Of a DNA stretch of 23,962 nucleotides, positions 8,425 through 12,244 are shown in pieces. A program made the position numbers and the translations under genes. Under the pieces are notes generated by a model. That model did no database searches, was not told where the DNA came from, and saw only the letters and a program-made list of their open reading frames with translations. Positions within the stretch are counted from its first letter, which is position 1, and every line of letters starts with the position of its first letter. The DNA is from a virus. The stretch covers positions 1 to 23,962 of the IMG/VR virus record IMGVR_UViG_3300036766_000122; one strand, given 5' to 3'.

Positions 8425-8759
8425 CGGACGCAATCGCACCTGCGCTGACGCCGGAACAATGGGCCGATGTTGCGAAATACGGCGTTAGCTACCTGCGCGC
8501 CGAAGTGGGTCCGGTGGTGCTGTGGAACGGCGACGATGGCCCCTCGGTGATCCTTGCCCTCGCCAACGCGGCCCTGCCCGACACCGACCCGCGAAAGATC
8601 ACATGGGCGATGGTGGATGCGCTACTCTGCGTTGTGCAGCAAGATACGGACGCGCAGAGGTGGGGGCCGTTCGACGGCGAGATAGAGGGCGCAGCGGGAT
8701 GCCAACGCCTCGCCGACGCCCTCGCCAGCTACCTACCGCCACGGGAGGCCAAGCCGTGA
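8421..8759 (+). CDS. Hypothetical phage protein, 112 aa
   Basis: Starts at ATGA 8421. An LTPEQWADVAKYG opening and a helical, acidic body with RLADALASYLPP at the end. The L-T-P-E-x-W start and the L-A-x-A-L-x-x-Y-L-P tail are common in short phage proteins of unknown function. The end overlaps GTG 8756. Confidence 0.6.
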   Translation: MTDAIAPALTPEQWADVAKYGVSYLRAEVGPVVLWNGDDGPSVILALANAALPDTDPRKITWAMVDALLCVVQQDTDAQRWGPFDGEIEGAAGCQRLADALASYLPPREAKP

Positions 8760-8893
8760 CATTCAACGCCATCTGGGGGGATGACCTCCCGGAACCCCCG
8801 GAGCCGTGGACGCCGCGGTTTGTCGTATGCACGATACTGCTCGTCGCGCTTGTGACGACGCTCGTTTACCTACTCAACACCTGCTGCGAGTAA
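8756..8893 (+). CDS. Single-span membrane protein, 45 aa
   Basis: GTG start in a GTGA overlap. A proline-rich, acidic N-terminal 20 residues is followed by one strongly hydrophobic segment (VVCTILLVALVTTLVYLL, about 24-41) and a short CCE end. The shape is that of a small inner-membrane protein. Two terminal cysteines could be lipid-modified or paired; this is speculation. Confidence 0.5.
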   Translation: MTFNAIWGDDLPEPPEPWTPRFVVCTILLVALVTTLVYLLNTCCE

Positions 8894-8896
8894 GCC

Positions 8897-9041
8897 GTGA
8901 CCGCCCGCGAGCGGTTGACGCGTCGCCGTGCTCCTCCGGCTCGCCAACGCGCTGGAACGGGCCGGGTAGCGACCGCATAACCCGTCCGTCCCTTGCGCTT
9001 GCGGCCCGCGTGGGGCATCCTACGGGCGGAGGGATGCCGCC
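8897..9041 (+). other. Gene-poor gap, possible decayed small gene
   Basis: Nothing in this 145-nt stretch reads as a convincing gene. A GTG at 8897 opens a 27-codon arginine-rich frame (to 8980). A one-base shift near 8927 would instead read VTARERLTRR followed by VLLRLANALERAG and stop at TAG 8967-8969, which looks more like real protein. The stretch ends with a GGAGGG ribosome site (9028-9033) for the ParB-like gene. Confidence 0.3.
9028..9033 (+). promoter_or_regulatory. Strong ribosome binding site before a CTG codon
   Basis: GGAGGG lies 8 nt upstream of CTG 9042-9044, the best-placed initiator for the ParB-like gene. No ATG, GTG or TTG occurs in that frame between the upstream stop (8967) and GTG 9156. 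Confidence 0.5.
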
Positions 9042-9761
9042 CTGACGACAAGCGCCGCAATCAAAGGGAATCAAAACAATCATTCCGGGCGGGGCGGAAA
9101 ACGCCCCGGTGCCGGGCGGAAGCCGAAGGCCACGGTCGCTCCGAGCGCGCTGGTTGTGATCGAGCGGCCGATTGCGGACGTGCTCCCCTACGCCGGCAAC
9201 CCGCGCAAAAACGACACGGCCGTCGCCAAGGTTGCCGCATCGCTCCGGGAGTTCGGCTGGCGCCAGCCGATTGTCGTGGACGAAACCCTGACCGTGATTG
9301 CCGGCCACACGCGGCTACTGGCGGCCCGATCCCTCGGCATGACGACCGTTCCCGTCCATGTGGCCAAGGGGCTCACCGCGGCCCAGGTGCGGGCCTACCG
9401 GCTCGCGGACAACCGGACGGCGCAAGAGGCCGAGTGGGATAATGACCTGCTCGCCCTCGAACTCGGCGCGCTCGCCGACCAGAAGTTCGACCTCTCCCTC
9501 ACCGGCTTCGATACTGGTGAGCTGGCGCGGATGTTGGGTGAGGGCATTGACCCGACCGCAGAATGGGTTGGGATGCCGGAGTTCGCGCACGAGGATCAAC
9601 GCCCGTTCCGCAGCCTTCACGTACACTTCGCGGATGCCGTGACCGTTGAGGATTTCAAGCGCCGGATCAGGCAAGAGTTTTCAGATAAGGCGAAGTATAT
9701 CTGGCACCCGAAGCTGTTGCGTGAAGACTTCGCATCGGAAGGGTACGCCAGTGAACCCTAA
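9042..9761 (+). CDS. ParB/Srx-fold protein with extra C-terminal domain
   Basis: From CTG 9042 the frame gives 239 residues: a basic tail (MTTSAAIKGNQ, then GGKRPGAGRKPK about 18-29), a ParB/sulfiredoxin-fold domain about 38-130 with N53-P54-R55-K and the phosphate-binding G88-H89-T90-R91 element, then a helical stretch, and a distinct C-terminal domain about 185-225 (RSLHVHFADAVTVEDF ... YIWHP). Phage ParB-fold proteins of this kind bind nucleotides, and some are nucleases; they commonly neighbour methylases, terminases and DNA-modifying glycosyltransferases. It overlaps the TAGT gene by 11 bp, so the two probably act together, perhaps choosing sites or handling modified DNA (inference). GTG 9156 is the first standard start but has no ribosome site and would lose the GRKPK tail. 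Confidence 0.8.
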   Translation: MTTSAAIKGNQNNHSGRGGKRPGAGRKPKATVAPSALVVIERPIADVLPYAGNPRKNDTAVAKVAASLREFGWRQPIVVDETLTVIAGHTRLLAARSLGMTTVPVHVAKGLTAAQVRAYRLADNRTAQEAEWDNDLLALELGALADQKFDLSLTGFDTGELARMLGEGIDPTAEWVGMPEFAHEDQRPFRSLHVHFADAVTVEDFKRRIRQEFSDKAKYIWHPKLLREDFASEGYASEP

Positions 9762-10602
9762 ATATCCGATCTACGTTATTTCCAAGGGTCGCGCAGACAA
9801 GAGCCTAACGGCGAGAGCATTGGCCCGTATGAGCGTCCCGTTCCGCGTGGTAGTTGAACCACAGGAGCGGGACGCATACGCGGCCGCCATTGGCCCGGCT
9901 AGAGTCCTAACACTTCCGTTCTCGAACCTCAGGCAGGGTTCAATCCCGGCGCGCAACTGGGTATGGGAGCACTCGGTGGGTGAGGGGCATGAGCGTCACT
10001 GGATCATGGATGACAATATCGTGCGCTTCTACCGCTTCAATCGAAACGCCAAGAACCCCCTAGAGGACGGCGCCGGGTTCGCCATCATGGAGCGGTTTGT
10101 GGACCGCTACGAGAACGTGCCAATGGCCGGGCCAAACTACGAGCATTTTGCGCCGAGGCGATCCGCAATCAAGGCACCGTTTCACGCCAACACCCGCGTC
10201 TACTCTTGCATCCTACTGGCGAACAACGTGCCGCACCGCTGGCGTGGTCGCTATAACGAGGACACGGACCTTTCTCTGCGTTTCCTGAAGGATGGCTATT
10301 GCACGATTCTATTCAGCGCATTTCTTGCCAACAAAGTAGCGACGATGCGGATGAAGGGCGGAAATACTGACGAACTCTACCGACAGGACAGCGCCTTTGA
10401 CGGACGCCTAGAAATGGCGAAGTCGCTCCAGCAACAGCACCCTGACGTTGTGAAGATCGCGCACAAGTGGGGGCGCTATCAGCATCACGTTGACTATCGC
10501 CCGTTCAAGCGAAACGCACTCATCCGGCGCGCGGGCGTTGTGATTCCGAGTAGCGTAGATAACTTCGGGATGCAACTGCGCCAGAAGGCCGTGCGCCCAT
10601 GA
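9751..10602 (+). CDS. TET-associated glycosyltransferase (TAGT) family, DNA modification
   Basis: The 283-residue product begins YPIYVISKGRAD, a GT-A type nucleotide-sugar fold. It has M86-D87-D88-N89-I90 followed by FYRFNRNAK, the metal/sugar-nucleotide site in place of a DxD motif. N169-E170-D171-T172-D173-LSLR is the acceptor or catalytic-side motif, and K202-G203-G204-N205 lies near the end. These motifs in this order mark the TAGT family described by Iyer, Aravind and colleagues, which adds sugars to hydroxymethylated pyrimidines in phage DNA, usually to block restriction. The start is GTG 9751 with GAAGGG upstream, overlapping the ParB-like stop. The sequence is visibly less GC-rich than its neighbours, suggesting separate acquisition. 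No TET oxygenase is in the window, so the acceptor base is unknown. Confidence 0.82.
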   Translation: MNPKYPIYVISKGRADKSLTARALARMSVPFRVVVEPQERDAYAAAIGPARVLTLPFSNLRQGSIPARNWVWEHSVGEGHERHWIMDDNIVRFYRFNRNAKNPLEDGAGFAIMERFVDRYENVPMAGPNYEHFAPRRSAIKAPFHANTRVYSCILLANNVPHRWRGRYNEDTDLSLRFLKDGYCTILFSAFLANKVATMRMKGGNTDELYRQDSAFDGRLEMAKSLQQQHPDVVKIAHKWGRYQHHVDYRPFKRNALIRRAGVVIPSSVDNFGMQLRQKAVRP

Positions 10603-10958
10603 CCGCCAAGGCCAGGGCCCGCAAGACCGGGCGCAAGCTCCTCCCGATTGACCCGAAGATCGTCGAGGGCATGGCCGGGGTCGGGGCGACCGATGGGGAA
10701 ATCGCCGACTTTGTCGGCTGCGAACGCTCCACGATCACCAAGCGTTTTTCACAACTACTAACAAAAGCCCGGTCGGGGATGCGCACGCGCCTCCGGCAGG
10801 CGCAGTACAAGCTCGCCCTCGGCGGAAACGCGACCATGTGCATTTGGCTCGGCAAGCAGGTGCTTGACCAGCAGGATAAGCAGGAGGTCGAGCACTCCGG
10901 GGAAGGGGGCGGCCCCATTCTCGTGACGGTTACGCGGCGACTCGTTAGGGCTGGATGA
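10599..10958 (+). CDS. terS: Terminase small subunit
   Basis: A 119-residue protein with a basic N-terminus and a helix-turn-helix about residues 31-52 (TDGEIADFVGCERSTITKRF), then a helical RTRLRQAQYKLALGGNATMCIWLGKQVLDQQDK segment and an acidic tail. The G-x-x-x-M-x-I-W-x-G-K-x-x-L-x-Q-x-D pattern is typical of small terminase subunits that recognise the packaging site and recruit the large subunit. It overlaps both the TAGT gene (ATGA 10599) and the large terminase (ATGA 10955). The length is within the family range. Confidence 0.85.
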   Translation: MTAKARARKTGRKLLPIDPKIVEGMAGVGATDGEIADFVGCERSTITKRFSQLLTKARSGMRTRLRQAQYKLALGGNATMCIWLGKQVLDQQDKQEVEHSGEGGGPILVTVTRRLVRAG

Positions 10959-12244
10959 CCGCGATCGAGCTTGACATTGCAACGCCGGAATGGGCTGAGC
11001 CACTTCTGGTGCCGGCCCGGTACAAGGGTGCCTCCGGCGGACGCGCCTCCGGTAAATCGCATTTCTTCGCTGAGGCCGCCGTTGAGGAGATGGTGTGCGA
11101 CCCGGCGCTCCGCGTGGTCTGTATTCGTGAGGTTCAGCGGAGCCTCCGGTATTCGGCCAAGTCCCTGATCGAGGCGAAGATCCAGTCCCTCGGCGTCGGG
11201 CACCTCTTCGACGTGCAACGTCCGGAGATTCATCGTCGGGGCGGCGACGGTGTGATGATCTTCGAGGGGATGCAGGACCACACGGCGGACAGTATCAAGT
11301 CCCTTGAAGGCTTCGGGCGCGCGTGGGTCGAAGAGGCGCAGAACATCAGCAAGCGTTCGCTCGACCTCCTCCTCCCCACGATTCGCGCGCCGGGTTCAGA
11401 AATCTGGTTCAGTTGGAACCCGGAGAACATGACCGATCCGGTGGACAAGTTCTTCGCCAGCGGCCAGCACGTCCGCGTCCACTCGACGTACCTCGACAAC
11501 CCGTTCTGCCCGGCAGAAATGCTGACCGAGGCGGCGCGGCTCCGCGCGGAAGATGGCGACGCCTACGAGCATATCTGGATGGGCGGCTACTTCCTCGGCG
11601 GCCACGGCCGCGTCTACTCATCGTTCCTCAACAAACCGTTCCCGGGAGGGAACATCGACGAATCCGTCCGGGACACGGGCGGCGACCTCTACGTCGGCCA
11701 GGATTTCAATGTGAACCCGATGGCCTCGGTCATTGCCGTGCGCGCGGTGGACGAGTGTCACGTGATTGACGCGCTGGAGATTGCCACGTCGAACACGCAA
11801 GAGGTCGCGGACGAAATCAAACGCCGCTACCCGAAACGGCGGATCATCTTCTGCCCGGACCCGGCGGGCAACTCCCGGCACACGAACGCGCCAGTCGGCC
11901 AAACCGACTTTACGATCCTCAAGGCGGCCGGCTTCGAGGTGCGCGCGCCCGCTACGCACGCGGCCGTGGTGGACCGGATCAACAACGCGCAGGCGATGTA
12001 TCATACGGTCACGCTCGCCAAGGATAACACGCCGACGACGCGCCGTCGGGTCCGCATCTCGCCGAAGGCTGCCCCGCTGATCCTCGCGCTCTCGAACCTG
12101 ACCTACAAAGAGGGCACGTCACTACGCGACAACAAAAAGGGCGGCGGCGCGTTCTTCCATATTTGCGACGCGATAGACTACCTTCTCTGGCAGGAGTTCA
12201 ACGTCCTGACGCCAGCGTGGTCGCAAGCGCGTGTAGCTTTCTGA
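10955..12244 (+). CDS. terL: Terminase large subunit (PBSX/Terminase_3 type)
   Basis: The 429-residue packaging motor and nuclease has a Walker A element at G28-G-R-A-S-G-K-S35, a Walker B/catalytic pair at W124-V-E-E-A-Q129, and a C-terminal RNase H-like nuclease that begins GQD250FNVNPM with further acidic residues in VIDALEI and FCPDPAGNSRH. The domain order and length match the PBSX-type large subunits (Terminase_3 with its C-terminal nuclease domain). It drives ATP-dependent DNA translocation into the prohead through the portal and makes the packaging cuts. It is coupled to terS and followed by the portal after 18 nt. Confidence 0.95.
   Translation: MTAIELDIATPEWAEPLLVPARYKGASGGRASGKSHFFAEAAVEEMVCDPALRVVCIREVQRSLRYSAKSLIEAKIQSLGVGHLFDVQRPEIHRRGGDGVMIFEGMQDHTADSIKSLEGFGRAWVEEAQNISKRSLDLLLPTIRAPGSEIWFSWNPENMTDPVDKFFASGQHVRVHSTYLDNPFCPAEMLTEAARLRAEDGDAYEHIWMGGYFLGGHGRVYSSFLNKPFPGGNIDESVRDTGGDLYVGQDFNVNPMASVIAVRAVDECHVIDALEIATSNTQEVADEIKRRYPKRRIIFCPDPAGNSRHTNAPVGQTDFTILKAAGFEVRAPATHAAVVDRINNAQAMYHTVTLAKDNTPTTRRRVRISPKAAPLILALSNLTYKEGTSLRDNKKGGGAFFHICDAIDYLLWQEFNVLTPAWSQARVAF

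Follow-up and report, generated by a model that had tools for sequence, protein, structure and literature searches.

Comparison of related viral loci shows that the last part of the ParB-like protein encoded in the DNA analysed here, a domain we call GMPEF, is a dedicated partner domain of the clade of TAGT glycosyltransferases encoded beside it, and that it is swapped together with the enzyme. This is our main result. The stretch studied (the window) is 23,962 nucleotides long and is a 24-kb IMG/VR fragment. The best explanation of the locus, and one which we consider probable, is that it encodes a late-expressed cassette of two proteins which would glycosylate DNA. The features are, by window position:

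9042-9155, plus strand: basic N-terminal tail, GGKRPGAGRKPK, of the ParB-core protein; the start is probably CTG 9042, with Shine-Dalgarno sequence GGAGG at 9028-9032 and GTG 9156 as alternative start.
9156-9511, plus strand: ParB core (ParB_N fold, nucleotide-binding motif AGHTR).
9512-9761, plus strand: swappable tail of the ParB-core protein, ending in TAA 9759-9761.
About 9561-9713, plus strand: GMPEF domain (EWVGMPEF...SLHVHF...KYIWHPK) within the tail, the dedicated TAGT partner domain.
9751-10602, plus strand: TAGT glycosyltransferase, predicted GT-A fold, 283 amino acids, start GTG 9751, stop TGA 10600-10602.
10599-10958, plus strand: terS, small terminase subunit, start ATG 10599 (phrog_309, 2.4e-12).
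10955-12244, plus strand: terL, large terminase subunit, start ATG 10955 (PF04466, 6.4e-31).

The ParB-core gene (9042-9761) and the TAGT gene share 11 bp, and ATGA overlaps connect TAGT to terS and terS to terL. The gene coordinates, the 11-bp overlap and the TAGT-terS overlap had been given in an earlier note on this DNA and are all found in the sequence. A portal protein is also recognised in the window by profile search (phrog_145, 8e-85). The frame of the ParB-core gene contains no ATG, GTG or TTG before 9156 and is open from CTG 9042, and this CTG, which lies behind the strong Shine-Dalgarno sequence GGAGG, is the probable start of the gene. The Shine-Dalgarno sequence and the CTG (window 9028-9044) are identical in contig L321; between the two the N-terminal tail differs in 2 of 38 codons, and the codon differences in the ParB core are 11 synonymous and 2 non-synonymous.

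The TAGT family membership proposed in the earlier note is borne out by profile search and motifs. PF20691 matches 9751-10602 over 205 of 205 model positions (E 1.3e-46, 159.5 bits against a cut-off of 27.5), and the protein also matches phrog_842 (2e-39). The motifs MDDNI, NEDTDLSLR and KGGN are all present; in an alignment with 31 relatives the key residues vary little or not at all, and the DDN, YNED and GGN positions are invariant in the 31 TAGT sequences. A PDB search with the TAGT sequence gave no match. The fold was approached through a relative, the triple fusion L048, in which ParB, tail and TAGT form one chain. In its AlphaFold2 model (mean pLDDT 88, pTM 0.64) the ParB core, the TAGT and most of the tail are predicted with confidence, and Foldseek retrieved GT-A glycosyltransferases with it, the nearest PDB folds including COLGALT1 and TarP. 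Profile, motifs and the modelled fold of the relative thus show the window TAGT to be a GT-A glycosyltransferase with intact conserved motifs. At least 598 viral stretches encode relatives of this enzyme, as found by scanning; a scan with the TAGT of Nonlabens phage P12024L as query gave 3 loci only. The TAGTs with a GMPEF partner form one group in the tree (support 92), apart from the TET-linked and jlb1-type TAGTs, and at least 24 changes of architecture have to be placed on the tree.

The ParB-fold assignment of the neighbouring protein also stands: it is matched by ParB_N (PF02195, 3.7e-6, 27.3 bits, cut-off 26.3) and by the phage families phrog_620 (5e-50) and phrog_498 (DNA methyltransferase, 1e-44), and the GRKPK tail pointed out earlier is present. 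The nucleotide-binding GHxR motif occurs as AGHTR, and the ParB part of the L048 model matches nucleotide-bound ParB structures, including CDP-bound ones (Foldseek). When a library of defence systems was searched, the ParB core alone matched, to the model of a ParB-containing methyltransferase. The ParB_N match would also fit an ordinary plasmid-type partition gene with an unrelated glycosyltransferase as neighbour. We regard this as extremely improbable: the canonical partition model TIGR00180 scores 26 bits against a cut-off of 58.45, no parA-like gene was recognised among the scanned window proteins, dozens of loci show the same operon arrangement, and the tail of the protein co-varies and is exchanged with the TAGT.

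When 80 related viral loci were compared, the element which recurs beside the TAGT turned out to be the C-terminal part of the ParB protein and not the ParB core. The GMPEF domain has about 50 residues with the consensus EWxGMPEF...IxVHFxxxEDxxxFAxLIxQxITxKTKxIWxP. It is found as a ParB tail, as a standalone protein of 80-100 amino acids upstream or downstream of the TAGT, as an N-terminal fusion to the TAGT, and as the middle part of a triple fusion of ParB, GMPEF and TAGT. No Pfam or NCBIfam model matches it, PHROGs gives just a weak family without assigned function, and a fold search with the lone domain, for which the query model was moderately confident, found no PDB match. In the literature searched, mostly outside subscription papers, neither this partner domain nor the ParB slot treated below is described.

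An IMG/VR search with the GMPEF domain alone gave 77 new loci, 74 of them with a TAGT on the same strand no more than about 3 kb away; matches were ranked by their similarity to a single GMPEF copy, so this figure describes the GMPEF clade and not all possible copies. Two of the three loci without a TAGT are at contig ends, and L100 is a real exception. Conversely, the domain is present at 49 of 55 TAGT loci in bacterial genomes, most of the exceptions being at contig ends. Nearly all TAGTs examined have the partner domain. The bacterial loci include some from sequenced isolates of Erwinia, Pantoea, Chryseobacterium and Xenophilus. Two GMPEF-TAGT fusions (L031:9647-11284 and L034:9286-11019) have an extra C-terminal domain, which in L034 gives a weak match to uracil-DNA glycosylase (0.0094) and a strong one to phrog_12275; that of L031 is similar by eye.

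Two observations indicate that tail and enzyme move together. In 47 non-redundant operons with a ParB tail and a TAGT, the distances between tails are correlated with the distances between TAGTs (rho 0.38, Mantel p 0.001), whereas those between ParB cores are not (rho 0.00, p 0.49), even though core and tail are part of one polypeptide. The other observation is contig L321, which is 90.6% identical to the window in DNA over 8744-9511, i.e. to the end of the ParB core. Past 9511 it has another tail, an ABC-ATPase plus a GNAT enzyme, and another terS and terL, and identity returns at 12230, at the end of terL. As read from this alignment, L321 is a direct case of natural exchange of tail plus enzyme on a ParB core. 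The earlier guess that the C-terminal part of the ParB protein (about residues 185-225) is a partner-specific domain was therefore right, as judged by proximity to the TAGT, co-variation and the exchange in L321.

What else may stand next to the ParB core was surveyed at 160 loci. These are the matches closest to two queries, and the numbers are no census. An N6/N4 methyltransferase is found at 116 loci (fused to ParB in 115), Mom at 9 and a TAGT at 14, six of these with a GMPEF tail; 3 loci are cut off and 18 are unassigned. The scanned members of the unassigned group have C5 methyltransferase, TET/JBP, ABC-GNAT or FkbM methyltransferase neighbours, and, as read from sequence alone, others appear to have C5 methyltransferases and two to adjoin S-adenosylmethionine decarboxylase. 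Named examples are Streptococcus phage Javan117, with a fusion of ParB and N6/N4 methyltransferase upstream of the terminase; Methanoculleus virus Blf4, with a ParB-domain DNA modification methylase upstream of terL; Psychrobacter phage Y8A, with the order ParB, Mom (PF25680, 1.8e-55), terS, terL; and Lactobacillus phage jlb1, with the order ParB, TAGT (1e-32), terS, terL and the same 11-bp ParB-TAGT overlap as in the window. L262 has the series ParB, TAGT, a protein that looks like the TET proteins of its neighbours, terS, terL; this TAGT is of another lineage, without the GMPEF tail. The ParB core is the constant part, common to ParB-methyltransferase, ParB-Mom and ParB-TET operons. The comparison shows it as a chassis, with an adjacent slot just upstream of terS-terL which usually holds a predicted DNA-modifying enzyme, and the gene order of the window fits this arrangement. 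The idea of a modification module coupled to the packaging genes, put forward in the earlier note, gains support from the survey; the action of the module on DNA would follow by analogy.

Some contents of the slot deserve mention for their own sake. An ABC-ATPase with a GNAT protein occupies it in L321:1157-2311, L330:1154-2278 and L250:2550-3617; this pair may be an undescribed DNA-modification enzyme, since a GNAT fold has also been proposed for Mom. S-adenosylmethionine decarboxylase-like sequence follows the ParB-core gene in L287:5280-5618 and ends it in L390, where it forms the ParB tail (both by eye), a possible link to base modification of the polyamine type. PAPS-reductase-like genes lie in the same phage regions (L198:8307-9029 and L203:7019-7939 by eye; Y8A 1959-2720 annotated).

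DNA glycosylation is the best reading of the window locus because the enzymes found in this slot in relatives (methyltransferases of the N6/N4 or C5 type, Mom, TET, TET plus TAGT) all belong to DNA modification. GT-A enzymes also act on proteins and glycans, and a TAGT with this fold might instead glycosylate a protein or surface glycan (of the virion, the ParB tail or the host envelope), the link to ParB being one of regulation or localisation. In Vibrio phage 1.076.O the TAGT gene lies between portal and head genes, in the Erwinia locus L190:7196-9253 sialyltransferase-like, GT9-like and SAM methyltransferase genes are directly upstream of ParB-tail-TAGT, UDP-sugar enzymes are near the TAGT in some loci, and some relatives are found among sugar-nucleotide or surface-glycan-like genes. 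Against this, the other occupants of the ParB slot are mostly DNA-modification enzymes, one GMPEF-TAGT fusion bears a domain which resembles uracil-DNA glycosylase (weak match), and an obvious acceptor such as an invariant Ser, Thr, Asn or Tyr is missing from the GMPEF alignment. Taken together we find a protein or glycan target quite improbable. It should be noted that the sugar-type genes of the Erwinia locus come after genes resembling a lysis cassette. At about nine loci (L064, L071 and similar) sequences like UDP-glucose dehydrogenase and UDP-sugar epimerase/decarboxylase were seen by eye a few kb from the TAGT, and these may hint at the donor sugar.

If DNA is the target, the source of the acceptor base has to be considered. 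The earlier note stated that known TAGTs glycosylate hydroxymethylated bases in phage DNA, often with TET oxygenases. TET plus TAGT does occur in a ParB slot, in other lineages; the note's statement on the bases is too narrow even for known members, since the presumed reaction of the T6-type TAGT is the addition of a second glucose to glucosyl-hmC (PMC13390438). The note also stated that no oxygenase, cytosine methylase or hydroxymethylase is visible in the 24 kb, and this holds: Pfam recognises none of the three among the ten other window proteins scanned, and profiles for TET/JBP, the thymidylate-synthase family and C5 methylases have no match in the whole fragment record, which, being a fragment, by itself says nothing on absence from the whole phage. 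The thymidylate-synthase family includes dCMP hydroxymethylase. The searches covered 44 IMG/VR records with a GMPEF-clade TAGT, window included. TET/JBP and the thymidylate-synthase family are each found in 0 of 44 and C5 methylase in 3 of 44; many of these records being fragments, the lack of TET and hydroxymethylase in them is no more than suggestive. TET/JBP was likewise found in none of 16 whole bacterial host-plus-prophage genomes carrying a GMPEF-TAGT locus.

Ten named phage genomes were also searched, eight with a GMPEF-clade TAGT and P12024L and T4 as positive controls; the TET of P12024L and the T4 thymidylate-synthase-family gene were both found, and TET was seen in the control only. 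The Vibrio phages 1.124.O and 1.076.O (about 48 kb, nearly complete, labelled partial) have neither TET/JBP nor a thymidylate-synthase-family gene, and no annotated oxygenase. Such a family gene is present in 6 of the 8 named carriers, often among the larger ones, where it is probably thymidylate synthase itself; PTm1 has a second, weaker match which may be a hydroxymethylase. These genes and the second PTm1 match make a hydroxymethyl route possible in some carriers. The base source expected earlier (TET/JBP or hydroxymethylase) is thus not supported, with none in the 44 records or in the two nearly complete Vibrio phages.

The TAGT of the window could still act on a hydroxymethylated pyrimidine as in known systems, if the hydroxylating or hydroxymethylating enzyme came from the host or from another part of the phage genome. 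In favour of this, the window is only part of its phage, TET and TAGT share one ParB slot in L262, TET adjoins TAGT in P12024L, and PTm1 carries a GMPEF-clade TAGT together with its hydroxymethylase-like match. We nevertheless think this route unlikely in view of the searches above, with both controls found. Furthermore, gene 42 is missing from Aeromonas phages Aeh1 and 65 (PMC2993671, Table 4). A point against DNA glycosylation itself comes from Petrov et al. (PMC2993671), according to whom the genomes of T4 relatives without the whole modification network are probably without major dCMP modifications.

In the DNA-glycosylation cassette which we favour, the ParB core, likely a nucleotide-dependent DNA clamp, would hold the complex on the phage DNA, the tail would dock or activate the TAGT, and the TAGT would transfer a sugar from a nucleotide-sugar donor to a DNA base after replication, around packaging. 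The sugar on virion DNA could then shield it against nucleases. Decoration of DNA with sugar is probable because the enzyme and its swappable adaptor sit in the slot of DNA-modifying enzymes, before the packaging genes; we infer DNA as target, ParB as clamp and late action before packaging. The acceptor would not come from a TET/JBP or thymidylate-synthase-family hydroxymethylase encoded nearby, and might be an unmodified base or a base prepared by an enzyme which was not recognised. Extended to the whole clade, our more tentative proposal, possible and still short of probable, is that GMPEF-TAGTs glycosylate DNA without TET/JBP or dNMP hydroxymethylase, on such an ordinary or otherwise prepared base, as one of several cassettes exchanged on the common ParB chassis. 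If DNA is glycosylated with no hydroxymethyl base required, this would be a new way for phages to hypermodify their DNA and to evade restriction and CRISPR. Cultured carriers of GMPEF-clade TAGTs exist, so that this can be tested directly. The ParB slot may also serve as a finder: anything between this ParB core and terS is a candidate DNA-modification enzyme.

Compared with known systems, the enzyme family is known and the apparently TET-independent variant would be new. TET-linked TAGTs (e.g. P12024L gp27) belong to the same family, PF20691, and some also lie in the ParB slot (L262); they differ from the window TAGT in being about 24% identical to it, on a separate branch, without GMPEF domain and adjoining TET/JBP. 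The T-even beta-1,6-glucosyl-alpha-glucosyltransferases (T2, T6, CC31) also match PF20691 (29-39 bits), but they have no GMPEF domain, their genomes encode the gene 42 hydroxymethylase, and their presumed reaction is the addition of a second sugar to glucosyl-hmC (PMC13390438, PMC2993671). The fused GMPEF-TAGTs, among them those of Aeromonas 65 and Aeh1, Vibrio 1.124.O and Pectobacterium POP12, share clade and partner domain with the window and, unlike it, form a single chain without ParB; the Aeh1 enzyme is listed as acting on an unknown base (PMC8056088). ParB-N6/N4 methyltransferase fusions, described in PMC12704722, and the ParB-then-Mom operons have a different ParB tail and a methyltransferase or Mom as enzyme, and they share with the window the ParB core and the slot upstream of terS-terL.
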